Virus record (IMG/VR): IMGVR_UViG_3300047470_000212 | Location: 1-64,000 of that record | Reading direction: 5' to 3' (one strand) | Length of the DNA stretch: 64,000 nucleotides | Source: a virus | Part shown: piece by piece, positions 4,850 to 23,436 of the stretch | How the letters are laid out: every line of letters starts with the position of its first letter | Position numbering within the stretch: position 1 is the stretch's first letter | The notes under the pieces: generated by a model | The model's input: only the letters and a program-made list of their open reading frames with translations | Told to the model about the DNA's origin: nothing | The model's database searches: none | Translations under genes and position numbers: made by a program

Positions 4850-5166
4850 CACTGCTCTCCCACCTTCGCTTCGTTCCAGGCCTTCTCGGACACGCACACA
4901 TGGCCGGTGTCGTCGCCGTCGCGCAGGTTCAGCCGCCAGCACGCCGGGTCGGTCATCGGGATCGGGATGAAGCCCGTCAGCACCTGCGTGCACGACGTCG
5001 TCTTGCCGGACGGGGTGCACTGGGTGGTGTACATCGGCTGCATGTACGTCCAGTCGTTCTCCGGCACGTACTTCTTGCTGATGACCTCGCCGTGCTCGAT
5101 GCCTCCGCAGGCCGTCAGCAGTCCCGCGAGCGCAGCCGTAGCTGCGTAGGTATGAAGCCGCTTCAC
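4846..5166 (-). CDS. Small lipoprotein
   Basis: Signal peptide VKRLHTYAATAALAGLLTAC ends in lipobox LTAC, so it is predicted to be lipid-anchored on the outer face of the cell membrane. GTG start at 5166 with AAAAGGGG upstream. The mature part has four cysteines. Phage lipoproteins often block superinfection, but nothing here proves that. The repeat CTTCATACC forms codons 4-6 within the signal peptide's basic region. Confidence 0.7.
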   Translation of the reverse strand: MKRLHTYAATAALAGLLTACGGIEHGEVISKKYVPENDWTYMQPMYTTQCTPSGKTTSCTQVLTGFIPIPMTDPACWRLNLRDGDDTGHVCVSEKAWNEAKVGEQW

Positions 5167-5180
5167 GCGGCCACCCCTTT

Positions 5181-5342
5181 TCAGTGGTTGGTCTTGTCGG
5201 AGCACTTCTCGCCGTTCGGGCACTCCTCGCGCGGGTAGCCATCCCCGCACAGGCTCGGGTCGATCCCGAGTCCGGCGCCCAGCTCACCCAGTTCGAGTGG
5301 ACCTTCGCCGTGCGCCCATCGGTCGGCAGGGTTCTCGTACAT
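5181..5342 (-). CDS. Small acidic Cys-containing protein (53 aa)
   Basis: ATG overlaps the upstream stop (TGATG) with GAGGAGGAG just before. Cysteines at CGDGYPREECPNGEKC could form a small metal-binding knuckle. Function unknown. Confidence 0.6.
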   Translation of the reverse strand: MYENPADRWAHGEGPLELGELGAGLGIDPSLCGDGYPREECPNGEKCSDKTNH

Positions 5343-5704
5343 CAGGACTCCTCCTCGACGGTGTGGATCTGGTGGGACTCGGAGAGACCGCAGTACATAC
5401 AGCCGGAGTCCATCCCCCATGTCAGGTACTCGTCGTAGCCATGGGGAATCTGCTGCCACAACGTCAGCGGGTCACCGAAGTTGGGGAAGTGGTGCTCGTT
5501 GGGCATCCCCAAGAACTCCGCCGACAGCCGCTCGATCTCGTTCGGAGGGCCCCACTTCCTGATGCCCCCCTCAAACAGGACGAGGTGCCATCCCTTGCGC
5601 TCTCCGGTCGGGTCGTACTCCGACCACTCGCGGTCGACTATCCCGACCACGTCCCGCCAGCGAACGAGGTCCCCGTAGTAGGCCGTCGGGCACCACTTGC
5701 TCAC
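5342..5704 (-). CDS. Unknown Trp-rich protein (120 aa)
   Basis: Not recognised. Aromatic-rich, probably one small globular domain, with a CMYC pair near the C-terminus. Starts inside a 4-bp ATGA overlap with the upstream gene, so it is cotranslated with it from the promoter at 6000-6028. Confidence 0.7.
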   Translation of the reverse strand: MSKWCPTAYYGDLVRWRDVVGIVDREWSEYDPTGERKGWHLVLFEGGIRKWGPPNEIERLSAEFLGMPNEHHFPNFGDPLTLWQQIPHGYDEYLTWGMDSGCMYCGLSESHQIHTVEEES

Positions 5705-5958
5705 GCGTTCTCCTTCTCCAGGCGCTCCCAGGAGGAGGCCCAGGACGTGCGGGTGGACGGCTCCAGTCCGGACTCCTTCAGGACGTAGTCCGGGTGCAGC
5801 GAGCGGTTCTCCAGCAGGCCGTCCTCGGTGAGCACGTCCCCGCGCCAGGAGCCGGACGATCCCTGCGTGACCGAGCGGATGATCCCAGGGGCCAGGCTGT
5901 GGTCGTACATGATCGAGACACGGTCGCCGACCTTGTGCGGAGCCTTCTTCTGCACCAT
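5701..5958 (-). CDS. Unknown protein, SH3/KOW-like N-terminus (85 aa)
   Basis: Starts KVGDRVSIMYDHSLAPGIIRSV, which resembles small SH3-like barrels that bind nucleic acid or protein; a hint only. First gene after the promoter at 6000-6028. Confidence 0.65.
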   Translation of the reverse strand: MVQKKAPHKVGDRVSIMYDHSLAPGIIRSVTQGSSGSWRGDVLTEDGLLENRSLHPDYVLKESGLEPSTRTSWASSWERLEKENA

Positions 5959-5999
5959 GGTTCCTCCTTCTGCATTACTGCTTCCGAAGCAGTAACCGA

Positions 6000-6028
6000 A
6001 CTCTATCCAGAGCTACTACCCTTGTCAA
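6000..6028 (-). promoter_or_regulatory. Sigma70-like promoter for 5958 gene
   Basis: Minus strand TTGACA (6028-6023), 17-bp spacer, TAGAGT (6005-6000), about 40 bp before the ATG. Confidence 0.75.
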
Positions 6029-6061
6029 TCGGGTTCCTGCATCGACTTGCAAACATGAAGA

Positions 6062-6093
6062 AGGCCCCCACCTGGTCTCCCAGGCAGGGGCCT
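6062..6093 (-). terminator. Stem-loop terminator after 6105-6452
   Basis: AGGCCCC / GGGGCCT arms with an inner CCTGG / CCAGG pairing, just past the stop at 6105. Confidence 0.65.
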
Positions 6094-6104
6094 ATGGCTG
6101 TACG

Positions 6105-6452
6105 TCAGGCAGGGATGCGTGTAATCCGGTACGCGGGCGTCCCGTTCGGGGTCATCTCGGTCTCGCCGAGGAACCCCGCACCGTTCAGGATCTCTGCCAT
6201 GCGGTTGACCTTGTCCAGCCGCATGGCGATGTCGTCCAGGTCCCGGGAAGTCCTGCCCTCCTGGGCCAGAGCGGCGTCCTCCGGCGTGGCCCACATGAGG
6301 CTGGCCTCCCCCAACGACGGGAACAGGAAGGCGCTCCAACCCTCCCGGGTGACGATGCCGTCCTCTCCCGGCGTGCGCTCACGGCGCAGCAGCCCGTGGG
6401 GCGCCAGCGCTTCCGCGATCGTCGCGTCCAGTCCTGCTTGGTCTATAGCCAT
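6105..6452 (-). CDS. Unknown protein (115 aa)
   Basis: Not recognised. Soluble, mixed alpha/beta. Begins 1 bp after the upstream stop and shares its promoter at 7185-7213; followed by a terminator. Confidence 0.7.
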   Translation of the reverse strand: MAIDQAGLDATIAEALAPHGLLRRERTPGEDGIVTREGWSAFLFPSLGEASLMWATPEDAALAQEGRTSRDLDDIAMRLDKVNRMAEILNGAGFLGETEMTPNGTPAYRITRIPA

Positions 6453-6453
6453 C

Positions 6454-7146
6454 TCAGCTCCCTCCCCTCGCGGCCAGCTCGGCCGTCCGCTTGTCCAACA
6501 TCTCGGCCAGCCCGTCAGCGATGTGGTGCAATCCCGCCGCCCCGAGGTGCGGGCCCTCTGCCATCTCCCGCAGCTTCTCGATTGCCCACTGGGTGCCTTC
6601 CAGGTTCTCCCGGATCAGCAGACCATTGAGCGCGGTGTCGAACGCCTGCCGCGCGTAGTCCTTCGGCTGCTCCGGCGCCGCAGCGGGCTTCGAGCCCAGG
6701 ACGTCCTCCGCGACCTTGCGGAAGTTCTCCAGGCCCACGCTCGACTTCGTCCGAGTGCTCAGGTCGTAGACCTGCTGATCCGTGAGCCGGACACCGCCGC
6801 CACCGACACCGACACCGTTCGCCTTGTCGACCCAGCCCTGGCAGACCTCACGCATCCAGTCCGGCGCCACGCTGTCCGACCCCAGCGGGTCCATGAACGG
6901 GATGGCGTAGTCCCGCTTCGTGGTCACCTTCCCGTCCTTGACCTTCGGCCCGACCGCGCTGGCCGACGACACCTCCCACACGCCCGTCTCCGAGTTGGGG
7001 AAGATGCTCAGACCGATGGCGTTCGGGCGAACCATTCCCCAATCCGAACCCCCCTCCGGGTTCATCGTGTCCGGCACCTCCGTGGTGAGGTCCATCGGAA
7101 TCGTCCAATTCGAATCGCTCCGGACCTTGTAACCGACCTTGCCCAT
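6454..7146 (-). CDS. Unknown protein with Gly-rich loop (230 aa)
   Basis: Not recognised. The N-terminal ~110 residues are beta-rich; a glycine run (GVGVGGGG) then leads to a helical C-terminal half. I chose the ATG at 7146, preceded by GGGGAGCGGG, over an ATG 21 bp upstream. A sigma70-like promoter lies 40 bp upstream. Confidence 0.75.
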   Translation of the reverse strand: MGKVGYKVRSDSNWTIPMDLTTEVPDTMNPEGGSDWGMVRPNAIGLSIFPNSETGVWEVSSASAVGPKVKDGKVTTKRDYAIPFMDPLGSDSVAPDWMREVCQGWVDKANGVGVGGGGVRLTDQQVYDLSTRTKSSVGLENFRKVAEDVLGSKPAAAPEQPKDYARQAFDTALNGLLIRENLEGTQWAIEKLREMAEGPHLGAAGLHHIADGLAEMLDKRTAELAARGGS

Positions 7147-7184
7147 GTCCCGCTCCCCTTCGCCCATCCCTTGATTACGCGATA

Positions 7185-7213
7185 AGGCTATCGACGCCCT
7201 GTAGCCATGTCAA
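7185..7213 (-). promoter_or_regulatory. Sigma70-like promoter for 7146 gene
   Basis: TTGACA (7213-7208), 17 bp, TAGCCT (7190-7185) on the minus strand. Confidence 0.75.
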
Positions 7214-7222
7214 GCACTTTCA

Positions 7223-7600
7223 TCATTTCGATTGACGCTCAGGCGCCCCTTCCGCATCGTCCAGAACCTTCACGACCGCTTCCAGCACGTTGGTCGGCAC
7301 CGGCTTGTTACGCATGGTGCCGGTGAACCCGTGCACGCGCAGCCGAGCCCACAGGTCTTCGCGCTTCTGCTCGTCCTCCCAAGCCTCCCGAGTCGACAAC
7401 TCGTAGGCACCGTCCTTCGACATGCCCGTGGCGATCTCGAAGGTGTCCGTCGGACCGTCCGTCTGGTCCCCGTACCGCAGGATGTGAACCAGCGTGCGGC
7501 CGACCTTGGCCACGGTGACCGCCGTCGGCTCTTTACCGTGATGGACCCGCAGCACGCGCAGCAGCGTGTCCCCGGCCTTGACTCCCTCAAGATTGCTCAT
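7223..7600 (-). CDS. Unknown protein (125 aa)
   Basis: Not recognised. N-terminal VKAGDTLLRVLRVHHGKEP suggests a small beta-barrel. ATGA overlap with the upstream stop; third gene of the three-gene unit from the promoter at 8190-8218. Confidence 0.7.
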   Translation of the reverse strand: MSNLEGVKAGDTLLRVLRVHHGKEPTAVTVAKVGRTLVHILRYGDQTDGPTDTFEIATGMSKDGAYELSTREAWEDEQKREDLWARLRVHGFTGTMRNKPVPTNVLEAVVKVLDDAEGAPERQSK

Positions 7601-7836
7601 CCCAGCGCCCTCCACTTACGGATCTCGCTCTTGATCTTCTTGATGGCCGGGGAGCCCAGGTCCTCGCCCATGTCGATGCCGCGACCGTCGTCCAGGACGC
7701 TCTTCTCCATGCGGTCCCAGACGTCCTCCCAGTCGATGCGGCCCTCGTCGTACCAGCCCTCGACGATCCCCTGGACGATCTCCAGCACCTCGTCGGTGAC
7801 GTCCTCAGCCGTACGCACCTCGAAGTCGTTCGCCAT
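7597..7836 (-). CDS. Unknown acidic protein (79 aa)
   Basis: Not recognised. Acidic, helical. The ATG overlaps the preceding stop as TAATG. Confidence 0.7.
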   Translation of the reverse strand: MANDFEVRTAEDVTDEVLEIVQGIVEGWYDEGRIDWEDVWDRMEKSVLDDGRGIDMGEDLGSPAIKKIKSEIRKWRALG

Positions 7837-8153
7837 TACTTGCTCCCCTTGGCCAGCATCGGAACCTCGTCGATGAAGTACGGCATCTGGATCCACCTGT
7901 CCGGGCCCGCCTTGCGGGTCAGCACTAGGCGGTTGTCCCAGTCGTCGTCTTCGCCCTTCTCGACCGGCTCCCACTTGTATTGGGTGGCTCCGACGATCTT
8001 CGTCAGCATCTTCTCCGCGCGGCCCTTCAACGCGTCCAGGTCGCCAGCCGCGACCGGCCCTCCGCTTGCCCACAGCACGTGCGTCTTTGCCCGCGCCTTC
8101 ATCTCCTGTGCGGCGTCCGCGAGCCATTTCTCGTAGTCGATCTTCTCCGCCAT
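7836..8153 (-). CDS. Unknown protein (105 aa)
   Basis: Not recognised. Helical N-terminus with MAEKIDYEKWLADAAQEMK, then a beta-rich half. First gene after a strong promoter match. Confidence 0.7.
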   Translation of the reverse strand: MAEKIDYEKWLADAAQEMKARAKTHVLWASGGPVAAGDLDALKGRAEKMLTKIVGATQYKWEPVEKGEDDDWDNRLVLTRKAGPDRWIQMPYFIDEVPMLAKGSK

Positions 8154-8189
8154 GTCCCGCTCCTCCCCGCCGTTTTCAATTCCAGGAAA

Positions 8190-8218
8190 AGACTATCGGC
8201 CCCCAACCGCCTTGTCAA
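8190..8218 (-). promoter_or_regulatory. Sigma70-like promoter for 8153 gene
   Basis: TTGACA (8218-8213), 17 bp, TAGTCT (8195-8190) on the minus strand. Confidence 0.75.
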
Positions 8219-8260
8219 GGGGTTTGACCGAACCGCTTGCTTCCGCGGAATTGAACGCAC

Positions 8261-8298
8261 AGGAGCCCCCACCCAATGACTGCTGGGTAGGGGCTCCT
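8261..8298 (-). terminator. Stem-loop terminator after 8311-8811
   Basis: AGGAGCCCC / GGGGCTCCT arms extended by ACCCA / TGGGT inside. Confidence 0.7.
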
Positions 8299-8310
8299 AT
8301 TTATGGCGGA

Positions 8311-8811
8311 CTACTGGTACCAGTACCGCACTCCACGGTGACCGCTGCACGTGCCGGAGAAGTTCCCGGAGTAGCTGATGGTCCCGTCCTTGCACTCAGC
8401 CATCGCCCCGGCCGGGTGCGGCGAGCTGGCCGCGCAGGTTCCCACGGTGTGGCTGGCGCACGTCGCAGCCGTCGAGCCACCGCCGGACGAACCACCGCTC
8501 GTGCTGCTGCCCCCCGAGGTACCTCCGGAACTGCCGCTGCTGCGAGCCGACTTGGTGACCGTTACGGTCGGAGCAGGCTTGGCCTTCTTGGTGACAGTGA
8601 CAGCGGGCTCCGGCTTGGCCGTGACGGTCGCAGTCGCCGTGACGCTCACGGTCGGCTTCACCTCAGCAGCTACCGGGGTGCTGTCATCGCCGGTTCCGAT
8701 GCCCGCACCGACGCCGAGGAGCAGGACAGCTCCGGCCCACACACGCTTTCTCTTGTACAGCGGCCGGAGGTCCGCAGGTCTCGGCGCAGGCTGGTTTCCG
8801 TACGGATTCAA
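8311..8811 (-). CDS. Membrane-anchored DUF3761 protein
   Basis: One membrane segment (about residues 24-42, VWAGAVLLLGVGAGIGTG) follows a cytoplasmic N-terminus. A long Thr/Val/Lys then Ser/Gly linker leads to a C-terminal DUF3761-like domain, recognised by CKDGTISYS, GTCSGHRGVRYW. The family is common in secreted actinobacterial proteins and of unknown function. Topology places the domain outside the cell. Confidence 0.7.
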   Translation of the reverse strand: MNPYGNQPAPRPADLRPLYKRKRVWAGAVLLLGVGAGIGTGDDSTPVAAEVKPTVSVTATATVTAKPEPAVTVTKKAKPAPTVTVTKSARSSGSSGGTSGGSSTSGGSSGGGSTAATCASHTVGTCAASSPHPAGAMAECKDGTISYSGNFSGTCSGHRGVRYWYQ

Positions 8812-8858
8812 CTTGATCCCCCCATGGGATGTGTGGATTTAACTGCGGTGCCTGCCAG

Positions 8859-9359
8859 TTACGGCGTGGTGTCCTTCTTCAGCGTCTGCGGCAGGCTCTG
8901 CAAGCACGCCGTCATGAACTCGCCCCGGTCGATCGCGATCGTGGTGTACGAGCCACTCAGGGCCGAGTACTCCATGCTGCACGTCGAGTCGCTGGCCGTC
9001 ATGGTCATGTTGCCTGCGTCGTCGTACACACCCCCGCCGATGACCCCGTTCGCATAGATCCCCATCAGGGTGGACTTACCGAACGTCGGCACCTTCTTGG
9101 TCACCGTCTTCGTGACCACCTTCGGCGGCTGGTTCTTCAGTGCCTTCACCTCGGCCTGCGCCTTGGTCTCCCCCTTGCGAGCGGCGTCGACCTGGTTCTG
9201 CTTGTAGACCCCCATCGTCAACGCAGCAGCGACCGCAATTACCGCGATGCCACCCGCGCCTACCGCCACCCACTTCGACTTACCGCCGACCTGCTTCTCC
9301 TCGGCCAGCGGCTCCTCAAGCATGAGGTCCCCGTCCGCCAGCTCGTTCGTGTCGCTCAC
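8859..9359 (-). CDS. Single-pass membrane protein (166 aa)
   Basis: Acidic N-terminus, one hydrophobic segment near residues 30-50 (WVAVGAGGIAVIAVAAALT), a Lys/Ala helical stalk, then an extracellular-looking domain with two cysteines. Same architecture as the 8311-8811 neighbour; the pair may form a cell-surface module (inference). Two promoter candidates lie upstream at 9421-9449 and 9628-9657. Confidence 0.7.
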   Translation of the reverse strand: MSDTNELADGDLMLEEPLAEEKQVGGKSKWVAVGAGGIAVIAVAAALTMGVYKQNQVDAARKGETKAQAEVKALKNQPPKVVTKTVTKKVPTFGKSTLMGIYANGVIGGGVYDDAGNMTMTASDSTCSMEYSALSGSYTTIAIDRGEFMTACLQSLPQTLKKDTTP

Positions 9360-9420
9360 TTGCTTAACCCTCCCTGTACAACGGCTCGTTGGTGCCCCCC
9401 TGGCTCCGCCGTCTCCACGG

Positions 9421-9449
9421 ATTTTGCATGTTCAACTACCCCTCGTCAA
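9421..9449 (-). promoter_or_regulatory. Promoter candidate close to 9359 gene
   Basis: TTGACG (9449-9444), 17 bp, CAAAAT (9426-9421) on the minus strand. Confidence 0.45.
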
Positions 9450-9480
9450 GCGTGTTGGCCCTCCCGCTTGCAACCCGCTA

Positions 9481-9528
9481 ATTCCCCGAAATCCCCACCC
9501 CCAATTCCCCGAATCCCCGAATCCCCCG
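9481..9528 (-). repeat. G-run tract, possible G-quadruplex in leader
   Basis: The minus strand has six runs of four or five G separated by 1-5 nt (units like GATTCGGGG). It would lie in the 5' leader of RNA started at 9628-9657. Confidence 0.65.
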
Positions 9529-9627
9529 GCCACTGTGACACTGTCCGGTTCCTACATGCGGTGCGCTGCGCGGCTGTCCGGGCCCCCAGGCTCTGGAATT
9601 TATGCGTTTAAGGGTAGGGGGGTCGTA

Positions 9628-9657
9628 TATATATTCATTGCCGAGCACACTTGACAA
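9628..9657 (-). promoter_or_regulatory. Strong promoter candidate with overlapping dyad
   Basis: Minus strand TTGTCA (9657-9652), 18 bp, TATATA (9633-9628). A dyad TTGACAA-CGGT-TTGTCAA (9651-9668) covers the -35, so a repressor could act here. Confidence 0.5.
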
Positions 9658-9928
9658 CGGTTTGTCAACCCGGACACATGGGGCACACCCTAGGCATCGC
9701 GCTTCCCACCAGTATCTGCACCCTTGACCCCTGGAGTGAGCTACATCACATTCGGGGACTATGCATACAGGGCGCAGCATGTCAACAGTTTGGCACGGTG
9801 GATATTATGCAGGGCAATTGCTGTTTATTCACGCTCGGCCACTGCCCTAAACGCTGAATTGAAAGGCTGACAATAGGCCCCGGACATTGGAGGCATTGGC
9901 GCTTTTGTAGCAACTCGACAAATGGACG

Positions 9929-9983
9929 GCGTGGCAATTACGCGTAATGGCGTGGCGGTCGCATGGCTGGCGGTCGCATGGCC
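9929..9983. repeat. Palindrome and tandem duplication
   Basis: Perfect 12-bp palindrome ATTACGCGTAAT (9937-9948) between direct repeats GGCGTGGC (9929-9936, 9949-9956), followed by a 15-bp tandem duplication GGCGGTCGCATGGCT/C (9954-9968, 9969-9983). Confidence 0.8.
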
Positions 9984-10161
9984 GGAGGGGTAGACGTAGC
10001 TGTGTCTCATGTGCATTGGTCAGCAGTGGGAAGCCTTCCCCCGGCCCCGGATCCGCTGGCCTATGGGTGGTCGAGCGGCTGTGTCGGCACGGGTGGGCAT
10101 GCGGGGCGCTGTGTGGCTGCGTGGGGGCGTTGTAGGGCTTCCCTGGGGGTGGACAGCAGAA

Positions 10162-10198
10162 AGCCCCCCACCGGCCCGGGATTGGGCGGTGAGGGGCT
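10162..10198 (-). terminator. Stem-loop terminator after 10219-10716
   Basis: 12-bp arms AGCCCCCCACCG / CGGTGAGGGGCT, one wobble, downstream of the stop at 10219. Confidence 0.7.
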
Positions 10199-10218
10199 GT
10201 CGTGGCCCTGCTGTGTGG

Positions 10219-10716
10219 CTAGCGGATGTCGGTGGGGTGCGTGACCTCGTACGCCTCGCGCATGGCCTTAAAGGCCTCCCAGACCTCGCGGCCGTTGGTC
10301 TGCGGGCCGATGCCGTGGCCGTTGCTGGCCGACACGGCGACGGTGCACAGGAAGGACTCCCCGCGACGGTAGGCAAGGTGCGCGTCCGCGTCGGCGCGGC
10401 TGATCACGTAGCCGCAGCGTCCGCGACCGTTGGGCAGTTCGTCGCGGCACTCCCACGCGGCGATTTCGTCGTTTTCGACGATGGGGCGCAGCACGGTGGA
10501 CGTAACCCAGGTGTGCGCGGGGTCGCGGCGGGGGTCGCCCTTGAGCTGCGCGGCGCTCCACCCGTGGCGGTGGGCGTGCAGTCCCGTGTGGGGCAGGGTG
10601 GTGCAGCGGTCGCAGGTGGAGTAGTAACCGCCCTCCGGGGGCTCACTGTCGTACGCGCGGTCACGGGTGCAACCGGGGGTGAGGCACTGCGGGGCGGTGG
10701 TGGTGTTGGCGTCCAT
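10219..10716 (-). CDS. Cys/His-rich unknown protein (165 aa)
   Basis: Cysteines in CLTPGC (near residue 12) and CDRC (near 35), with histidines just after, suggest an N-terminal zinc-binding domain. A further WECRDELPNGRGRCGYVI pair lies near residue 90. Not assigned to a family. Followed by a terminator. Confidence 0.7.
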   Translation of the reverse strand: MDANTTTAPQCLTPGCTRDRAYDSEPPEGGYYSTCDRCTTLPHTGLHAHRHGWSAAQLKGDPRRDPAHTWVTSTVLRPIVENDEIAAWECRDELPNGRGRCGYVISRADADAHLAYRRGESFLCTVAVSASNGHGIGPQTNGREVWEAFKAMREAYEVTHPTDIR

Positions 10717-10764
10717 GGGGTGTTCCTCGTTTCCGCGATTTGGTGGGCAGTGTAGGGCGGGTGG

Positions 10765-11097
10765 TCAGTGCTGGGGGCGGCGGATCATGGTTTCTTGCGT
10801 GCCGTAGTCGCGGCTGCGTCCCTTGTTGGGCGCGAACCCGAACCGGGCGTAGAACCGGCGCAGACGGGCCACGCTGCCCCCAAAATCGGCGCTCGGGGTG
10901 GTGGCCAGGTTCAGCCCGTACGCGTCGGCGTAGGCGGTCAGTTCGTCCATGACGGCCGAGCCGGTGCCCGCGTTGCGCGCGCCCTTGGGGACGGTCAGAC
11001 GGGAGAGGATCACGAAGCCTGCCGCGTTCGTCTCGATGGACACGCGCACGCCCGGGAAGGTGTGGGCGATGTGCTGGGCGATGGTGTCGGCGCTCAC
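10765..11097 (-). CDS. GNAT-family N-acetyltransferase
   Basis: Predicted acetyltransferase using acetyl-CoA; substrate unknown. The core signature is visible: beta-strand LSRLTVPKGARNAGTGSAVM with the RxxGxGxxL-like CoA-binding loop near residues 40-50, then LNLATTPSADF and RLRRFYARFGFAPN, the usual C-terminal motif. At 110 aa it is a minimal GNAT. GTG start at 11097 with AGGAGG seven bases away; the last ~30 nt of its leader are the same as before the gene at 12621. Confidence 0.8.
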   Translation of the reverse strand: MSADTIAQHIAHTFPGVRVSIETNAAGFVILSRLTVPKGARNAGTGSAVMDELTAYADAYGLNLATTPSADFGGSVARLRRFYARFGFAPNKGRSRDYGTQETMIRRPQH

Positions 11098-11143
11098 GGC
11101 GCGGCCTCCTGGTGTGGGGCGGGTGGTTGGGAAGTGCTGGGGG

Positions 11144-11491
11144 TTAGGCGGTGGTGCGGGCGGCGGTGCCGTCCTCCCGGCCCATGGCGAGGGAGTCGGC
11201 CAACTCCGGGCGCCACGCCAGGGAGCGGCGCAGGTCGGACAGGAACGCGTGCCGGTCGAACGCTTCCCCGTCGGTGTAGGCGTCCACGGCGCCGAGCATG
11301 TACGCGGCGGCGTGGCGTCCCTCGTTCGCCGAAGAGTCCCAAACAAGCTGTCGGGCGGACGGGCTGGCGGCCAGGGTCACGCGGTAGCCGTGGCCGTCGC
11401 GGCCGGTGCCGACGCGGACGGATACGCGCTCTTTGGTGAGGGCGCCGAGGTGGGCGGCGACGGTGGCGGCGACGGTGTGGGTAATGCGCAT
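11144..11491 (-). CDS. Unknown protein (115 aa)
   Basis: Not recognised. Alanine-rich, soluble. CCAGGAGGGCCACCCC precedes the ATG. A terminator lies just upstream at 11522-11548, so it may have its own promoter or rely on read-through. Confidence 0.7.
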   Translation of the reverse strand: MRITHTVAATVAAHLGALTKERVSVRVGTGRDGHGYRVTLAASPSARQLVWDSSANEGRHAAAYMLGAVDAYTDGEAFDRHAFLSDLRRSLAWRPELADSLAMGREDGTAARTTA

Positions 11492-11521
11492 GGGGTGGCC
11501 CTCCTGGGCGGTGTGGTGGGA

Positions 11522-11548
11522 GGGGGCCGGAGCGTTTCCCCGGCCCCC
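11522..11548 (-). terminator. Stem-loop terminator after HDVFGHA gene
   Basis: GGGGGCCGG / CCGGCCCCC with a 9-nt loop, just after the stop at 11567. Confidence 0.7.
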
Positions 11549-11566
11549 GGGAACGTGGGGCGGGTG

Positions 11567-12425: not shown

Positions 12426-12438
12426 GTGACCTAGGGCG

Positions 12439-15975: not shown

Positions 15976-16019
15976 TCGCTTCCGCGCAGCGGCTTTCCAT
16001 GGTTCTATGTGCAGACACG

Positions 16020-16060
16020 AAAGGCCCCCACCGGCCAGCTCGACGCGGTGGGGGCCTTTT
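16020..16060 (-). terminator. Strong terminator after 16074-16535, copy 2
   Basis: AAAGGCCCCCACCG / CGGTGGGGGCCTTTT; stem, loop start and the downstream GCATGCCCGGGG are shared with 13798-13838. Confidence 0.85.
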
Positions 16061-16073
16061 GCATGCCCGGGGC

Positions 16074-17134: not shown

Positions 17135-17176
17135 CTTTCGCTCCTTGTCAGGGCGGGGTGGTTGGTGACAGGGACG

Positions 17177-17205
17177 AACCTAGTCACAGCAATACGTGTT
17201 GTCAA
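17177..17205 (-). promoter_or_regulatory. Sigma70-like promoter for 17134 gene
   Basis: TTGACA (17205-17200), 17 bp, TAGGTT (17182-17177). Confidence 0.75.
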
Positions 17206-17219
17206 GCGCTATCGTGAAT

Positions 17220-17441
17220 CTACTTGGCAGCGGTGTGCTTGCGCTGGACGATGCGACCCTTGGGCTTCGGCTGCTCGACCTCCGGATCCCAGTTCGGCGG
17301 GAAGACGGGGACGATCACGACGTCGCTCATCTCCGGTTCGAGCTGCCGCTTGCGGTCCTCGGCGCTCGGCCGGTCGTAGCTCACGACGGACACCTTCCGG
17401 TGACCGTTGGCGTCGGTCCACAGGACCTTGAAGTTCTCCAC
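17220..17441 (-). CDS. Unknown small protein (73 aa)
   Basis: GTG start with TAGGAG upstream, where TAG is the previous stop. Pro-rich C-terminal half with a basic end (RIVQRKHTAAK). Function unknown. Confidence 0.65.
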   Translation of the reverse strand: MENFKVLWTDANGHRKVSVVSYDRPSAEDRKRQLEPEMSDVVIVPVFPPNWDPEVEQPKPKGRIVQRKHTAAK

Positions 17442-17450
17442 GAGGTGCTC

Positions 17451-17981
17451 CTAGTCGCCGAGCTGCTTGTGGCCCTGCGCGTGCAGCACCCTGTCGAGCA
17501 TCTGGATAGCGGAGTTGGCTTCGTATGTGGGGATGAGGCACTCGACCTGGCCGTAGAGCATCAGGCGCACCGTCTCGATCCCGGTCTCTTCGTCCTCGGT
17601 GACCTTCCACCCGGAGATGGCATCGGTCTTGCCGAGGTCTTCAAGGATCTTGATGGACTCCCCGGTGAGCCCGCCCGAGAGGGTGGCGATCAGGAGGGGG
17701 ACGGTGTCCTCTTCCATGATCCAGACGCTCTTCTCGCCCTCACCGTCCTGGGCGACGAGTCCCACGCACTTGTCCGGCCGCCCGGCGACCTGGACGTACT
17801 GGGCTCCACTCAGGTCGCGGGCGACGAACGGCTTCTTCGGTTCCCTGCTCCGCTCGATCTCGTGATTGTTCACGGCCAGGTCGCAGACCGCGAGCAGCAG
17901 CTCGTCGGCGCGGGGCCGATCGAAACCAGCCTCCAGCATGGCGTCCAGGGCCTTGTCGTAGGCGGTCGGTTCGTAGGTCAC
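17451..17981 (-). CDS. Unknown acidic protein (176 aa)
   Basis: Not recognised. GTG start at 17981 with CAGGAG six bases away. Helical N-terminus, then alternating strands and helices. Second gene of the unit from the promoter at 18274-18302. Confidence 0.7.
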   Translation of the reverse strand: MTYEPTAYDKALDAMLEAGFDRPRADELLLAVCDLAVNNHEIERSREPKKPFVARDLSGAQYVQVAGRPDKCVGLVAQDGEGEKSVWIMEEDTVPLLIATLSGGLTGESIKILEDLGKTDAISGWKVTEDEETGIETVRLMLYGQVECLIPTYEANSAIQMLDRVLHAQGHKQLGD

Positions 17982-17994
17982 AATGTGCTCCTGA

Positions 17995-18234
17995 TCAGAC
18001 GAGAGTGGTGGCGTTGGCGACGCGCGGGCATCCCTGGGAAATGTAGTCCTGCCAACTGACAATGTTGTTCCGCGTGGCCTGGATACGGGTCATGAGGAGT
18101 CGCTGCCTGCGCGCCGTCTTCTCGGCCGTCCAGCGCTTCTCCAGGGCCGACAGCTCACGCTTGCGAAGCCTGATCAGCTTGCGTGCTGCGGTCTTGCGCT
18201 CGTCGAGCTGGTGGGAACGGAACGGGCTGGGCAT
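17995..18234 (-). CDS. Small very basic helical protein (79 aa)
   Basis: Arg/Lys-rich helices (RKLIRLRKRELSALEKRW) suggest nucleic-acid binding or a coiled coil. GGAGGAG before the ATG. Family unknown. Confidence 0.7.
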   Translation of the reverse strand: MPSPFRSHQLDERKTAARKLIRLRKRELSALEKRWTAEKTARRQRLLMTRIQATRNNIVSWQDYISQGCPRVANATTLV

Positions 18235-18273
18235 CTTCGCGGCTCCTCCTGGTGTGGGGTGCTTGCAGGAGAA

Positions 18274-18302
18274 ACGCTAAGGGGACCGCCTGGTGGTGTC
18301 AA
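18274..18302 (-). promoter_or_regulatory. Sigma70-like promoter for 18234 gene
   Basis: TTGACA (18302-18297), 17 bp, TAGCGT (18279-18274), interleaved with the terminator of the previous gene. Confidence 0.7.
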
Positions 18303-18312
18303 GCGGTCCCCT
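18280..18312 (-). terminator. Terminator overlapping the next promoter
   Basis: AGGGGACCGC / GCGGTCCCCT stem whose right arm abuts the -35. Termination of 18327-18659 and the start of the next unit share the same bases. Confidence 0.7.
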
Positions 18313-18326
18313 GATATTGCTTGCGT

Positions 18327-18659
18327 TTACTTGTTGAGCATCTGCTCGGTCTCGTCTACCGTCTCGGCGACGGTGCCGAAGGCGTCCGTCCAGGCAGCGT
18401 TCACGGCCTCGTAGGGCAGCGGGTGATCGGCCAGGTTGACGCCGGGCGGTACGGGCCCGTCATAGGCGAAGGTGCCGTCCAGGGGCTCCCACTTCAGCCT
18501 GGCCTCGCCCAGCTCCTCGTTGAAGCGTGCGGAGTGCTGGCGGGCCAGCTCGGCGACCAGGGCGGGAGAGGGGCTGTCGTAGCCGCACTGGGAGGAGAGG
18601 AAGTCCGTCCACTCCTGCTGCAAGGTCGGGTAGTCGAAGCCGGGGAGCTGGTGGTTCAC
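18327..18659 (-). CDS. Unknown acidic protein (110 aa)
   Basis: Not recognised. Helical and acidic with several Trp. GTG start after CACACCAGGAGG. Confidence 0.7.
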   Translation of the reverse strand: MNHQLPGFDYPTLQQEWTDFLSSQCGYDSPSPALVAELARQHSARFNEELGEARLKWEPLDGTFAYDGPVPPGVNLADHPLPYEAVNAAWTDAFGTVAETVDETEQMLNK

Positions 18660-18693
18660 GGGTACCTCCTGGTGTGGGGTGCTGGTGTGGTGG

Positions 18694-18858
18694 CTAGACC
18701 TGACGGGCGTTGATCACCGGGCCGACGGCAGCGCTCCCGTCGATGCGGCGGGTGTCGTCCTTGGGCGCCCAGTAGTGGCCCTTGTAGACGTGGCCCGGGT
18801 AACCCTCTTCGGTCTTCTTCAGGTGCCCCTCGAAGCTGCGGGCTCCGCACTTGCACAT
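18694..18858 (-). CDS. Small Cys/His protein (54 aa)
   Basis: Starts MCKCGARSFEGHLKK, a CxC-type metal ligand set, then basic residues. Possibly a mini zinc protein. GAGGAG lies in the end of the preceding gene. Confidence 0.6.
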   Translation of the reverse strand: MCKCGARSFEGHLKKTEEGYPGHVYKGHYWAPKDDTRRIDGSAAVGPVINARQV

Positions 18859-18860
18859 GA

Positions 18861-19259
18861 TCAGTTCTCCTCGTCCTCGATCAGCATGATGATCTGGGTC
18901 TCGGTCAGGAAGCGCTTCGCGGCCTCCTGCGTCAGGTGCTGGTGGACGCCATACAGGCCGGACTGCTGGGAGCGGTAGCTGAGCAACCAATCGGTCAGGC
19001 TCTTGCGCTGGTCCTCGATGCGGTCCAGGACCTTGTCGTCGTCGAACGGGCTGTCACCGTTGGCGTCCAGGCTCAGCTTCTCGGAGTAGGCGTTGGCGAC
19101 GGCTCGCAGCTCCATGAACTTCTCGAAGTCCATCACCGAGTCGACGCGGTTGGGGCCGGTCTCCAGCTTCTGCCGAAGGCTTTCGGCGAAGCCGAGGTAC
19201 GCGGTGTGCGCGCTCTTGGCGTAGGTGCGGACGCCTCGGATGGCCATGGCCTGGTTCAT
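18861..19259 (-). CDS. Unknown helical protein (132 aa)
   Basis: Not recognised. Nearly all alpha-helix by composition, ending in LTETQIIMLIEDEEN. Coupled to the downstream small Cys/His gene. Confidence 0.7.
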   Translation of the reverse strand: MNQAMAIRGVRTYAKSAHTAYLGFAESLRQKLETGPNRVDSVMDFEKFMELRAVANAYSEKLSLDANGDSPFDDDKVLDRIEDQRKSLTDWLLSYRSQQSGLYGVHQHLTQEAAKRFLTETQIIMLIEDEEN

Positions 19260-19264
19260 GGTCG

Positions 19265-19408
19265 CTACTCCTGGTCTCGTATCGCTGCGTGCTTGGCAGT
19301 CTTGCGGGTGCGCTGCTTGCGCGGGCGGGAATCGTGACCTCCGGCCGCTCCGCTGCGCCGACGTTCCTGGACGGCGCGGATGTGCTCGGGGTCCTGCTGG
19401 GCGTTCAT
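19265..19408 (-). CDS. Short basic protein (47 aa)
   Basis: ATG at 19408 after CCGGAGGCACAC. The product is strongly basic (RAVQERRRSG, RPRKQRTRKTAKH). Too short to assign; likely nucleic-acid or ribosome binding. It lies directly before the 18861-19259 gene. Confidence 0.6.
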   Translation of the reverse strand: MNAQQDPEHIRAVQERRRSGAAGGHDSRPRKQRTRKTAKHAAIRDQE

Positions 19409-19421
19409 GTGTGCCTCCGGG

Positions 19422-19462
19422 GCCGTAGGGAAGTTCCCAGGTTACGGGTTCTTCCCTACGGC
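19422..19462 (-). terminator. Terminator after 19476-20333
   Basis: 12-bp arms GCCGTAGGGAAG / CTTCCCTACGGC. Confidence 0.8.
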
Positions 19463-19475
19463 TTCAGAGTTACGT

Positions 19476-20333
19476 CTACCTGCGGCGGGCTGCGCGCTTC
19501 TTGGCCTCGTCGATGACCACCTCGGCGGTCTTGCCCTCCTTGTGGGCGATGGCCTCGGCAACCTTGTTCACGTCGCGGTGGGTGCCGTTGTTGCCGCGCC
19601 AGGCCTCGTACTGGTCGGCCAGCCAGGAGCGGGCGGCGGCCAGGGTCGCGATGGTCTGGAAGCGGTCGTGCGCGGGCTCGGTGACGAGGCCGTTCCGCGT
19701 CTGGCGCTGACGCTCGGGGACGCGCCAGTCGAAGACCTCAAGCGGGCTGCCGTCGGGGTTGGCGATGGCCTTGGCGGCCTTCTTCGCCTCGCGCTCGGCC
19801 TTCTTGGCTTCACGCTCCAGGCGGGCGGCCTTGCGCTCCGGCGCCTCCAGCTTCGTCTTCTGCTTGAGGATGTCGACCGGGGCCCACGGGAAGCAGACGG
19901 TGCACGCCTTCTCGCCCGCCAGCACGACCAGGTCCTCGGCCGACATGCCGGACTGCTCGACCAGCCAGGCGTACCGGGTGGTGGGGAAGCAGGTGTCGCA
20001 GTGCTCATCCTTGTGGACGTGACCGTTGCTGTTGTCGACCAGGTAGTACCGGGTCCAGCGGCGGTCGTTGTACTGCGCCTCGCGGGGGTACACCTCGGCG
20101 TCAAGGATTTCCCAGATGCGCTTCTGGAGGGCTTCGATCTCGGCGACCAGCTTGGCGCGGTTCTCCGGCGAGTGGGCCGGGAGCATGGACTGGTAGGAGC
20201 CGGGCTCGACCGCGTCGATACGGGACACCGTGGCGGTGAGGCGGTGCTGCTGGCTGGTCAGGTCGGCGATCTTGCCGTAGGCACCGAGGAGCGCGGTGTC
20301 GATCTCGACCGGGGTGGCGGTGGTGAGGTCCAT
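19476..20333 (-). CDS. Unknown protein with zinc-like Cys/His motifs (285 aa)
   Basis: N-terminal ~80 residues form a coiled coil. The centre holds VHKDEHCDTCF and KACTVCFPW, a CxxC pair set likely to bind zinc. A Lys/Glu/Ala helix follows (EREAKKAEREAKKAAKA), then a conserved-looking C-terminal domain. I recall similar proteins in other actinophages without known function. Own promoter (20374-20402) and terminator: a single-gene unit. Confidence 0.7.
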   Translation of the reverse strand: MDLTTATPVEIDTALLGAYGKIADLTSQQHRLTATVSRIDAVEPGSYQSMLPAHSPENRAKLVAEIEALQKRIWEILDAEVYPREAQYNDRRWTRYYLVDNSNGHVHKDEHCDTCFPTTRYAWLVEQSGMSAEDLVVLAGEKACTVCFPWAPVDILKQKTKLEAPERKAARLEREAKKAEREAKKAAKAIANPDGSPLEVFDWRVPERQRQTRNGLVTEPAHDRFQTIATLAAARSWLADQYEAWRGNNGTHRDVNKVAEAIAHKEGKTAEVVIDEAKKRAARRR

Positions 20334-20373
20334 CGTGTGCCTCCTGTTGTGGAGCGGTTGGTGACAGGTAGAA

Positions 20374-20402
20374 CTCTACGGAGGGCCCTACCCCTTGTCA
20401 AG
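20374..20402 (-). promoter_or_regulatory. Sigma70-like promoter inside end of upstream gene
   Basis: TTGACA (20402-20397), 17 bp, TAGAGT (20379-20374). The -35 overlaps the last codons of the 20388-20723 gene. Confidence 0.75.
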
Positions 20403-20723
20403 CGAAATCGGGTTACCGCTTGCGTCGATGTACTGCTCGATCTCGTAGCCCATGTTCAGGCTGTTCACGCGCTTCGCACCGATCGACTTCACGCGCAGTT
20501 CCAGGCGGGTGGTCCAGTCCGCTACCGCGTCCGGGGAGATCGGGCCGACGTTGCACTGGCGCAGCCACAGGATGGGGTCGAAGCGGTCGCTCGTGCCGGT
20601 GAGGGCGTCAGCGATGTTGAAGGCGATGTTGCGGCGCGCGTTGAAGTCCTGGTCGTCTGAGTCGGCGAGGGCGGCGGACAGGGTCTCGTAGTCGCTGCGG
20701 CTCATGTTGCGGGGCGCGGGCAT
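20388..20723 (-). CDS. Unknown protein (111 aa)
   Basis: Not recognised. Soluble, mixed charge. Leader CCGCACCAGGAGGAG. Its 3' end doubles as the promoter for the next gene. Confidence 0.7.
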   Translation of the reverse strand: MPAPRNMSRSDYETLSAALADSDDQDFNARRNIAFNIADALTGTSDRFDPILWLRQCNVGPISPDAVADWTTRLELRVKSIGAKRVNSLNMGYEIEQYIDASGNPISLDKG

Positions 20724-20763
20724 GGCGGGCTCCTCCTGGTGCGGGGATGAATGGTCGCGGGAA

Positions 20764-20810
20764 GCGTACGGGCCGCCCGGCTCAGGTGTCGAGTCGGACG
20801 GCCCGTACGC
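20764..20810 (-). terminator. Terminator after 20827-21057
   Basis: 12-bp arms GCGTACGGGCCG / CGGCCCGTACGC. Confidence 0.8.
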
Positions 20811-20826
20811 AGGGGGTGCGTAAGGA

Positions 20827-21057
20827 TCACGCGGCGGGGCGCTCCAGGTAGTACCACAGGCCGCTGTTCACCTGGACTGTGTAGCGGGCGCCGTCGGCGG
20901 ACTCGACCAGCCGAGCCTTGGGGTAGGTCGCCAGGGCCTGCCAGGCGCGGTCGGCGTCCACGGGGACCATCTCGCTACCGTTGTAGACACGGCAGGCGGT
21001 GAAGTCGGCCTTGATGGCTGCGATCTTCTTCGTGGCGGTGCGGGCGATGGTGCGCAT
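20827..21057 (-). CDS. Unknown small protein (76 aa)
   Basis: ATG at 21057 with TAGGAG eight bases upstream. Basic N-terminus, then YTVQVNSGLWYYLERPAA. Function unknown. Confidence 0.65.
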   Translation of the reverse strand: MRTIARTATKKIAAIKADFTACRVYNGSEMVPVDADRAWQALATYPKARLVESADGARYTVQVNSGLWYYLERPAA

Positions 21058-21076
21058 GCTGGGGTCTCCTAGGGTC

Positions 21077-21931
21077 TCAGGCGGCGAGGGAGGTGCGCTG
21101 GCCACCGAGGGCCTTGGCGCTGCCCAGGCGGGCGGACTGGCCCGCGTTGTCACCGGCCACACGGGCGGCGGTGCTGTACGCGGTGGTGCGGCTGGAGCCC
21201 TTCCAGGAGCCCTTGGCGGTGGACGCCTTCGCGTAGTAGGCGCCGATCTCCTTCTTCTTGTCGAAGAGGACCAGTTCGGCGGTCACCTCGATCTCGTACT
21301 CCACGCCGTTCTCGCCCGTGGTGGGCAGGGTGTAGACGTTCTCCTTGGCCGCCTCCAGGGCCTCGCGGCGGGCGTCCCACAGGCGGGAGGAGATTCGCCG
21401 GGTGAAGGCGTCGTAGAAGTTGGCGCGGGCGGTGCGTCCGTCCAGCGAGCGCTCTTCCAGGTCCTTGTAGGTGCCCCAGGCGTCGCGCTTGGTCACCTGC
21501 CGCAGGACCTTCTCCTGCTTGTACTCGCCGGTCTTCAGCCAGGCGTTGGCGGCCTCGGTCATCTGGTACAGCAGGGAGGCGTACAGGACCTCGACGACCT
21601 CGATGTCCGACGGCATGCCGAAGGCGATCACGAAGGTGGAGTTCATCGCGATGTTGACCTTGACGTCGTTGTTGTCCGCGATGGCGATGAACAGGTTCAC
21701 CAAGCGGGCGTTGTTGTTCTTGCGGGGCTGGCCAATGGTGATGTGCTTGTGGGTCGGCTGCTCGCGCTGCTCCTTCTTCGCGGTGTGCTGCCGGGCCACG
21801 GCGAGGTCGATGCTGCCGAGGGTGGCCAGGGACTGCGCCTTCTTCATGTAGGTCGCGGCTTCCTCGGGGGTCGAGGCGTTCTCGGCCTTGGCGAGGATCT
21901 TGGCCAGCTTGTCGAGCATGCGGTCAGCCAT
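21077..21931 (-). CDS. DUF2786 domain protein (284 aa)
   Basis: The first 45 residues (LDKLAKILAKAENASTPEEA, then AATYMKKAQSLATLGSID) match the DUF2786 helical domain. The rest is alpha/beta with LWDARREALEAAKEN and a Ser/Thr-rich C-terminus. The family occurs in actinobacteria and their phages; function unknown. Promoter at 21971-21999, leader CAACCGCCCCCGCAACAGGA. Confidence 0.7.
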   Translation of the reverse strand: MADRMLDKLAKILAKAENASTPEEAATYMKKAQSLATLGSIDLAVARQHTAKKEQREQPTHKHITIGQPRKNNNARLVNLFIAIADNNDVKVNIAMNSTFVIAFGMPSDIEVVEVLYASLLYQMTEAANAWLKTGEYKQEKVLRQVTKRDAWGTYKDLEERSLDGRTARANFYDAFTRRISSRLWDARREALEAAKENVYTLPTTGENGVEYEIEVTAELVLFDKKKEIGAYYAKASTAKGSWKGSSRTTAYSTAARVAGDNAGQSARLGSAKALGGQRTSLAA

Positions 21932-21970
21932 CGTGGGCTCCTCCTGTTGCGGGGGCGGTTGATGAGGTAG

Positions 21971-21999
21971 AACTTACGGGTTTCGGTATTGCTTGTCAA
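21971..21999 (-). promoter_or_regulatory. Sigma70-like promoter for DUF2786 gene
   Basis: TTGACA (21999-21994), 17 bp, TAAGTT (21976-21971). Confidence 0.75.
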
Positions 22000-22013
22000 G
22001 CAATTCTCTGGAC

Positions 22014-22352
22014 TTACTTGCGAGGCTGTCCACCGCTGGGGATGCCGACCACGCGCTTCCCCTGGCGGTAGTCCCAGGTCTGCTCGTGGACGCGGTCGGC
22101 CTCGAACTCGTCGTAGGTCTCCTGCACGGCCTTGATGACGTCCAGGACGGTGTCGTACGGGCCGCCGGAGCGGGTGGTCAGACGCGGCGCCGAGATGTCG
22201 AAGTGCCAGCCGACGTCGTCGGCCGTGATGTCGTCCTCGGTGCCGAACTCGACCACGGCGTCCTCACCCACGCGCCAGATGGACCCGAGGGAGCCAAAAC
22301 GGTCGGTGACCTGGAGGTTGTCCGGGTCGTCAGTGGTCTTGAAGGTCAGCAT
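22014..22352 (-). CDS. Unknown acidic protein (112 aa)
   Basis: Not recognised. Beta-rich N-terminal half, ending GIPSGGQPRK. Follows the HEIAHH gene by 10 bp with GAAAGG as ribosome site. Confidence 0.65.
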   Translation of the reverse strand: MLTFKTTDDPDNLQVTDRFGSLGSIWRVGEDAVVEFGTEDDITADDVGWHFDISAPRLTTRSGGPYDTVLDVIKAVQETYDEFEADRVHEQTWDYRQGKRVVGIPSGGQPRK

Positions 22353-22362
22353 GTGGTGCCTT

Positions 22363-22884
22363 TCAGGCGGCGACGGGGGCGGCGAGGCGCACACCGTGGC
22401 GGGTGTAGGAGTCGGTGAGCAGGAGGCCGACCTCCGGCCCGAGCAGTTCGGTGACCAGGTGGAGCATGGTCCGCGTGAACTCGGCGCCGTGGGTCTGGGT
22501 GCTGCGGGTCAGGTGGTGGGCGATCTCGTGGATGATGACGATCTCTCGCATGGCCCACGAGATGCCGCTCACGTGCGGCGGGACGGCGATGATGGCGCCC
22601 CACGGCTCATAGTGGGCGAAGCGGCTCCCCTTGCGGGCCCGGATCGTGATGGGGCGCTCGGCGCGGGCGTAGTCGGCCTTGACCCAGTTGAGGGCCAGGA
22701 CCGCGTCCACGTAGCGCTGGACGCCGTCGATGTCGCCGAACTTGCGCTCGGCCGGGACCAGCAGGCTGGAGCCGTAGAAGTCGAAGGTGCGCACGTCGGT
22801 CTTGGCAAGGGAGTCGAGGATTTCTCGCACGAACCGTTCGGCGTCGTAGACCTTGGAGACCTGCATGTCGCGAGTGGTGCCCAT
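22363..22884 (-). CDS. HExxH metalloprotein (TIGR04338-like)
   Basis: Putative zinc metallohydrolase. The core REIVIIHEIAHHLT (about residues 105-118) gives HExxH plus a third His, with a downstream HGAEFTRTM segment for the remaining ligand. This arrangement matches a family of short actinobacterial/phage HExxH proteins (TIGR04338). No secretion signal, so it would act in the cytoplasm; substrate unknown. ATG at 22884 after CACCAGGAGGAG. Confidence 0.7.
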   Translation of the reverse strand: MGTTRDMQVSKVYDAERFVREILDSLAKTDVRTFDFYGSSLLVPAERKFGDIDGVQRYVDAVLALNWVKADYARAERPITIRARKGSRFAHYEPWGAIIAVPPHVSGISWAMREIVIIHEIAHHLTRSTQTHGAEFTRTMLHLVTELLGPEVGLLLTDSYTRHGVRLAAPVAA

Positions 22885-22931
22885 CGGGTGCTCCTCCTGG
22901 TGGGGGGCGGTTGGTGTGTTCGACATGGGAA

Positions 22932-22959
22932 ACAATACTCAGGAAGCCGTAATCGTCAA
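22932..22959 (-). promoter_or_regulatory. Promoter for HExxH gene
   Basis: TTGACG (22959-22954), 16 bp, TATTGT (22937-22932). Direct repeat AGCCGTAATCG lies over the -35 region. Confidence 0.6.
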
Positions 22960-22977
22960 GCCGTAATCGGAAAGCAG

Positions 22978-23018
22978 TAAGCCGTGAGCTGCGTCACATA
23001 CGCGGCCCACGGCTTACC
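22978..23018 (-). terminator. Terminator after 23038-23436
   Basis: GTAAGCCGTG / CACGGCTTAC arms with an inner GC pairing. Confidence 0.7.
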
Positions 23019-23037
23019 GGGTTGACTGGCTATGAAA

Positions 23038-23436
23038 TTACTTGGTAGACCTTGGCGCTTCCGTCACCGTTTCCTTTGGGCACGGGACCTTGACCTGCAC
23101 GGAATGCGTGTGCGCCAGCCCATACACCGGTGCGTAAGGCGTGGCCGACGACGTAGGTGCAGGTATTGCGGGCGACGGCCCGATCACGAGCGATACCTTG
23201 CACGTGCCCGAGGACTTCGACTTCGATTCCTTCGGGGTTTTCGATGGGAGATACCGCGTCACGGTAGGTACGGGCTGCGGATCGGAATCCCCTTCTGCCG
23301 CCGGAGAATCCGACCGGGAATTCTGGGTATGAAGCCCGTCGAAATCCTGCTGCGGAACCACGGAAAGTCCGATAGCCGGTACTGCGAGAATTCCGATTGC
23401 GGCCAGGGCGACTTTGATGCGCTGGAATGTGCTCAT
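23038..23436 (-). CDS. Secreted or membrane-anchored protein (132 aa)
   Basis: Hydrophobic N-terminal segment (VALAAIGILAVPAIGLSVV, residues 8-26) followed by a Ser/Pro/Lys-rich low-complexity region and two cysteines. Probably exported; function unknown. CTTCATACC encodes GLHT just after the membrane segment. It overlaps the preceding mini zinc-finger gene by ATGA. Confidence 0.65.
   Translation of the reverse strand: MSTFQRIKVALAAIGILAVPAIGLSVVPQQDFDGLHTQNSRSDSPAAEGDSDPQPVPTVTRYLPSKTPKESKSKSSGTCKVSLVIGPSPAIPAPTSSATPYAPVYGLAHTHSVQVKVPCPKETVTEAPRSTK

Follow-up and report, generated by a model that had tools for sequence, protein, structure and literature searches.

The locus and the repeat

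The window studied here is the whole stretch of 64,000 nucleotides (nt) that opens the 107,080-nt virus record IMGVR_UViG_3300047470_000212 (loci L007-L009 are the remainder of the record), and our subject is a short word repeated through much of it, together with an 18.2-kb block of accessory genes from which the word is missing. The phage is related to Streptomyces myoviruses such as BRock, with a major capsid protein that is 74% identical and a DNA polymerase that is about 54% identical; no close relatives turned up among GTDB genomes, where Nonomuraea supplied only a polymerase homologue at 51%. Its genes are strongly biased toward the minus strand (147 of the 160 called). The presence of a tyrosine integrase, a serine recombinase, and an XRE-DUF5753 regulator makes a temperate life possible.

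A template-free word search returned, as its strongest word, GGTATGAAG on the plus strand, or CTTCATACC when written for the coding strand and CUUCAUACC for the messenger RNA (mRNA). Exact copies number 23 in the window against 0.33 expected, all of them on a single strand. With tolerated variants counted, giving the consensus CTTCATAYN on the coding (minus) strand, the window has 32 copies (Table 1) and the 107-kb record 47. The sole opposite-strand copy lies beyond the window, in a small gene by the integrase (record 88188-88346, plus strand); in its place several relatives encode a small protein unrelated to it, which also carries the word in frame close to the start. Copy spacing was not significantly regular (P = 0.11), Rfam gave no match in the window at gathering score, and a literature search for the word found nothing relevant.

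Two word types among relatives

Each of the 41 close loci that we compared from the viral collection carries either CTTCATACC or CTTAATACC, referred to here as the CAT and AAT types. Within one phage, virtually every copy has the same letter at position 4, and the two sister groups have different letters there; at orthologous places, all 429 cross-type comparisons (215 + 214) match the word of their own genome, with none in the wrong state. Such a uniform one-base change at dozens of places argues for one trans-acting reader, and judging from these comparisons a single reader of this kind probably exists. The element is absent from the named phages BRock, GiJojo, and pSt2308 and from the outgroups G010 and G011, and a third outgroup, G012, has a looser [CG]TTCATAY that is in frame in nine of nine cases. 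AAT-type loci around the gene for a 64-amino-acid (64-aa) protein discussed below (L183-L189, L191) each contain exactly one CTTCATAY.

The word itself is tightly held. Positions 1-7 are invariant: set against 108 consensus copies, four CAT genomes have between zero and two single-base variants in frame 0. In this genome, 34 of the 37 Leu-His-Thr (LHT) tripeptides are encoded by CTTCATACN, and at places without a copy relatives commonly use CTG CAC ACC; the fixed codon choice on one side and the alternative codons on the other indicate that it is the word, and not the peptide, that is kept. A role for Leu-His-Thr at the peptide level was therefore rejected, as the codons are fixed and the second residue switches to Asn in the other type. 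We also rejected the histidine transfer RNA (tRNA-His) as the reader: this phage has both tRNA-His and tRNA-Asn, but the CAT-type genome G003 lacks tRNA-His.

Reading frame, mini-ORFs and stem-loop

The repeat is a translated element of the mRNA, CUU-[C or A]AU-AYN, and is read in one frame. When a single gene caller was applied to eight genomes (seven close genomes, this phage included, and one outgroup), all 254 copies within same-strand called genes fell in frame 0, with none in frames 1 or 2; every copy within the called genes of this record reads CTT CAT AYN. Since CTTCATACC has no stop in either alternative frame, stop codons do not force frame 0 in the CAT type. Most copies outside called genes also belong to short open reading frames (ORFs): 29 of these 33 have an in-frame start within 15 codons, compared with seven in frame +1 and one in frame +2, and 15 have a recognisable ribosome-binding site. 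Copies are enriched at gene ends (44 of 145 vs 14% expected), which is where added residues do least harm.

The codon phase bears directly on whether the copies could instead be DNA sites of the repressor or stoperator kind, in which an immunity protein would bind an asymmetric word and stop transcription, with a lysogen-expressed accessory block being spared. Several features would suit such sites, namely the one orientation, the genome-wide spread, the group-specific word, the presence of an integrase and an XRE-DUF5753 regulator, and the absence of the word from the separately promoted block. We nevertheless regard this as improbable. A DNA site would not hold codon phase in all 254 copies, inside genes and in mini-ORFs with their own start codons; the downstream stem described next would be left unexplained; and the XRE regulator does not track the word type (four state changes). 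An oriented word for DNA uptake or of the Chi-like type was rejected on similar grounds, as it would be expected to be frame-neutral and the present word is frame-locked.

A stem-loop of variable sequence lies 3' of the word, usually starting about 2 nt past the nine-mer. Over 193 distinct copies, folding on this side is stronger than under synonymous-codon resampling (mean z -0.81, P = 4e-12), and the same resampling gave no signal upstream of the copies or further downstream. A combination of slow codon and hairpin raises the alternative of ribosome pausing or recoding without a protein reader, where a slow CAU or AAU with a hairpin at 5 nt would lead to pausing or to +1 slippage at CUU. The fixed frame and the spacing of the stem are in line with this, and CUU in the P site is shift-prone. 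However, +1 and +2 stops lie no nearer to the word than to control codons (medians 45 vs 32; 94 vs 65) but farther away (a shift product is invisible to sequence alone), and neither the strict third codon AYN nor the uniform switch between C and A is needed for pausing, which leaves this explanation with a small chance of being correct.

The repeat-free block

According to the initial annotation, positions 5158-23325 lack the repeat, while the sequence on either side has about one copy per kb. Our counts agree on both, with 0 copies in 5161-23320, five in 1-5160 (0.97/kb), and 27 in 23321-57100 (0.80/kb). A gap of 18,177 nt is not expected from random placement of 32 copies (P = 0.0007), nor, given the density seen elsewhere in the window, are zero copies over 18.2 kb (P = 3e-6), and the gap is syntenic in four relatives, where it spans 18.5, 17.1, 18.7, and 15.3 kb between the same flanking genes. 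The further proposal that the tail genes are repeat-free has to be narrowed: 56.8-64 kb is empty (0 copies in 57101-64000), but six copies are present in 57.1-86.4 kb (0.20/kb), including one at 67068-67076 inside a 1452-aa gene (63225-67583) that starts within the window. The structural genes are thus poor in the repeat, and not free of it.

The same annotation had described the 5.3-23 kb stretch as one in which many genes have a sigma70-like promoter of their own, and a scan for strict sigma70-like promoters (TTGACN, spacer 16-18, TANNNT; minus strand of the whole record) bears this out: nine of the 11 promoters fall within 5161-23320, a single one within 23321-57100, and none within 1-5160. 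The repeat-bearing genes form long arrays without such promoters. Given this concentration of promoters in the repeat-free block, the expression unit fits better than gene ancestry, the other explanation offered at the time; a link to expression class is supported indirectly, in that the repeat-free block is the individually promoted block, and ancestry is disfavoured by copy counts. In the repeat-rich core, patchy genes have seven copies in 4.0 kb (1.76/kb) and conserved genes 20 in 31.4 kb (0.64/kb), while in the accessory block neither the patchy (11.1 kb) nor the conserved genes (only 4.1 kb) have any.

These numbers also speak to the notion that the gap reflects age only, newly acquired genes having lacked the time to gain copies. 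The patchy occurrence of the accessory genes among relatives would be consistent with it, but within the core it is the patchy genes that have the higher copy density, and conserved genes of the accessory block also lack them, although over a short total length. Because patchy genes elsewhere carry copies, gene age explains the gap poorly, and we consider it very improbable; separate transcription accounts for the gap better. It may be the accessory genes that are expressed in the lysogen.

Two further repeats were noticed. A leader common to accessory genes, CCCCACACCAGGAGG or near it on the minus strand, surrounds the ribosome-binding site at window positions 11105-11143, 12629-12667, 18245-18283, and 22893-22931 (direct-repeat families D11, D15, and D20). 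A second repeat, AAGCCGTAATCG with near variants, is found at six places (window 1750-1761, 22944-22955, and 22958-22969 on the plus strand and 48007-48018 and 56217-56228 on the minus strand; record 103587-103598, minus strand); similar words in relatives precede the start of a small plus-strand gene adjoining the integrase, and the repeat is possibly an operator or promoter element.

Candidate readers

Comparing every gene of this genome (about 100) across both word types, we found two with a large clean gap between the types; on trees, the types are told apart by many further genes too, but less sharply. Both lie beyond the window. One encodes an 80-aa HicA-like protein (record 93411-93653) with identities of at least 71% within a type and at most 51% between types, and the other the 64-aa protein (record 99080-99274), at least 75% within and at most 61% between. 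No homologues of either gene were found in named phages, nor of the HicA-like gene in plasmids. The separation of two phage genes by word type argues weakly against a host factor or host RNA as the reader, a scheme under which CAT and AAT phages would differ in host. The one uniform state per genome speaks for it; another weak argument against it is that both types share metagenomes (e.g., L014 of the CAT type and L031 of the AAT type in 3300046616), and we think it unlikely to be right.

The HicA-like protein is matched weakly but in agreement by three family resources (Pfam, E 0.0038; PHROG toxin, 7e-4; PADLOC HicA-like, 0.0026). Its model is a helix-three strands-helix arrangement resembling a double-stranded RNA-binding domain (dsRBD), with elements H20-31, E35-39, E43-47, E53-58, and H64-76, a core predicted local distance difference test (pLDDT) score of about 80, and a predicted template modelling (pTM) score of 0.52. 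The top eight VIA matches include 5yrz, 6hpb, 4p78, 6g26, and 1whz; HicA chains reach Z 4.1-4.7 over 55-59 residues, a level also reachable by chance, and RnlA entries are among the weak fold matches. The residues G41-N42-H43 are invariant in 13 homologues, that of the element-free G010 included, and in HicA the Gly22 and His24 of a conserved Gly-x-His are needed for toxicity (PMC3969222). The 3' end of the HicA-like ORF is the word of its own type, and the G010 homologue ends in CTGAACGTC. For the 64-aa protein, fold matches are weak and mixed (ribosomal LX, p56, Dmd), with nothing firm.

Proposed mechanism

Our preferred, though tentative, reading of these sequence patterns is that a phage-encoded HicA-like reader cuts or blocks the phage's own core mRNAs in codon phase, with accessory units exempt. 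One phage-encoded trans-acting factor would read the element during translation of the mRNA. As the stem starts 5 nt past the CAU or AAU codon, the hairpin would be encountered when this codon occupies the ribosomal A site. The likeliest reader would be the HicA-like protein, perhaps together with the 64-aa protein, and a factor of this kind that requires the ribosome would explain the fixed frame. We infer cleavage at the element by the HicA-like protein, and the copy that ends the gene for this protein could provide autoregulation. The accessory genes would be exempt as separate transcription units that need to stay on, early or in the lysogen. In its fullest form the proposal is more doubtful: core mRNAs would be marked genome-wide by an in-frame three-codon word and hairpin, read by the HicA-like factor only on translating ribosomes; a one-base switch in specificity would have dragged dozens of copies with it; and separately promoted accessory genes would have been kept word-free to escape control. 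Since the repeat-free block predicts which genes escape, such regulation is open to test.

Several observations weigh against a HicA-like reader and a functional hairpin. The Pfam HicA_toxin score is 17.8 bits against a cut-off of 27, Foldseek places 1whz on top only at E 0.095, and Pfam recognised no HicB among the genes next to the HicA-like gene, for which reason we call it HicA-like and do not speak of a HicAB system. The outgroup G010 holds a homologue yet has no such element. CAT and AAT are largely two clades, and one state change suffices for 33 of 63 gene trees, so the link to the candidate readers is confounded by phylogeny, and both candidates may have diverged together in a single historical event. 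As for the hairpin, orthologous places without the word fold nearly as well (difference P = 0.067), which makes the stem likely, yet less certain than the word; a covariation count over orthologous stems was uninformative and badly controlled, and is not used.

Features of the window and record

Table 1. Copies of the element and associated features, in window positions
Position	Strand	Feature
665-673	-	CTTCATACC (GLHTG) in long ORF, left end
2964-2972	-	CTTCATACC with stem-loop (6-bp stem)
3388-3396	-	copy at codon 3 of 83-aa gene
4233-4241	-	copy directly followed by stop codon (LHT and stop)
5149-5157	-	last copy before gap, codon 4 of 106-aa gene, with stem-loop
5158-23325	-	repeat-free accessory block, genes g013-g046, mostly without Pfam match, patchy among relatives
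5999-22959	-	nine strict sigma70-like promoters, 5' ends 6028, 7213, 8218, 15975, 17205, 18302, 20401, 21999, 22959
13745-13753	-	intergenic near miss CTTCATAAC inside gap, without usual strong stem, not counted
23326-23334	-	first copy past gap, CTTCATACC, ORF 23038-23463
24846-24854	-	CTTCATATG, 512-aa gene
25597-25605	-	copy
25687-25695	-	copy
27045-27053	-	copy; relatives have CTG CAC ACC, same peptide by other codons
27354-27362	-	CTTCATATC
28936-28944	-	copy; stem-loop begins 5 nt downstream
29957-29965	-	copy
31229-31237	-	copy close to C-terminus
34578-34586	-	copy close to C-terminus, deoxynucleoside monophosphate kinase-like gene
38575-38583	-	CTTCATACT
39019-39027	-	copy at C-terminus of RecA-like gene
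40209-40217	-	copy in mini-ORF MRLHTYGGPC (then stop), AGGAG upstream
40878-40886	-	copy, ribonucleotide reductase gene
41721-41729	-	copy, ribonucleotide reductase gene; LNT in AAT-type relatives
45182-45190	-	copy, DNA polymerase gene; LNT in AAT-type relatives
45970-45978	-	copy; outgroup G012 has looser GTTCATACC at this position
46709-46717	-	copy with 7-bp stem-loop
47596-47604	-	copy
50002-50010	-	copy in mini-ORF MNNRLHTWAEAANASA (then stop)
50373-50381	-	copy; CTG/TTG CAC ACC in AAT-type relatives
51982-51990	-	CTTCATACT with 8-bp stem-loop, DnaB-like helicase gene
52715-52723	-	CTTCATATC
53496-53504	-	CTTCATACG
54794-54802	-	CTTCATACT in mini-ORF MTLSLHTYRFLGVAE (then stop)
55204-55212	-	CTTCATACG
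56786-56794	-	last copy of window, CTTCATATA

The record also encodes RNA-repair type genes, an RlaP-like nucleotidyltransferase and a polynucleotide kinase-phosphatase (window 1864-2517; record 105637-106554), which would be relevant if infection involves RNA cutting. Beyond the window, one plus-strand ORF (record 88469-90553) joins a serine recombinase to a C-terminal DUF4096 domain of the IS4/5 transposase type. Among the outgroups, GAACCGGTT repeats are over-represented on both strands of G012 (L169-L171), separately from its in-frame word, and CTTCTAG is over-represented on the coding strand of G010 (L158-L162; 32 vs 6 expected, in frame CTT CTA G). The latter was considered as a third word and set aside; it has no downstream stem and may be codon context.

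Comparison with known systems

To our knowledge, no described system has a genome-wide regulatory word that is locked to the reading frame, lies inside genes and dedicated mini-ORFs, and switches by one base in all copies, and the pattern suggests an undescribed way for a phage to mark its own messages. Bacterial frameshift signals and those of the selenocysteine insertion sequence (SECIS) type likewise place a stem-loop a few nt after an in-frame codon; here, however, there are dozens of copies per genome and a shift product is not evident from sequence. The stoperators of cluster A mycobacteriophages are similar in being asymmetric, present in many copies, and group-specific (PMC9283540, PMC6550527), but are DNA sites without codon phase or stem-loop.

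Among systems acting on RNA, T4 RegB is a phage nuclease that recognises a short word (GGAG) in a class of the phage's own mRNAs, is helped by a ribosomal protein, and cuts its own mRNA (PMC3014915); the HicA-like ORF, ending in the word of its own type, recalls this self-cleavage of the regB mRNA. The likeness is one of function, as RegB sites are mostly in translation initiation regions, inhibited by structure, and frameless, whereas the present word occupies codons in a fixed frame and has a stem 3' of it. Escherichia coli RNase LS (RnlA) and T4 Dmd provide a case of translation-coupled mRNA cleavage (PMC3014915), although RNase LS is a host nuclease of loose specificity and the comparison does not rest on homology.

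The candidate reader resembles the HicA/HicB systems, among them gp91/gp90 of phage Adephagia, in its small size, its conserved G-x-H, and the dsRBD-like fold predicted for it; it differs in its weak sequence score and in the lack of a neighbouring HicB. We are not aware of any HicA whose cognate words are long, in frame, and spread over a whole genome. Phage HicB partners may measure 65 aa (PMC11373665), and the 64-aa protein is comparable in size. E. coli HicA was reported to have a strong bias to cut before the first base of a codon, which is hard to square with full independence of the ribosome (PMC8546651); such a bias agrees with the fixed frame seen here. If the HicA-like protein reads the element, a HicA-type enzyme would have a natural set of substrates in these copies, which would bear on whether HicA acts on ribosomes, and the system would count as a new form of phage mRNA-decay control.

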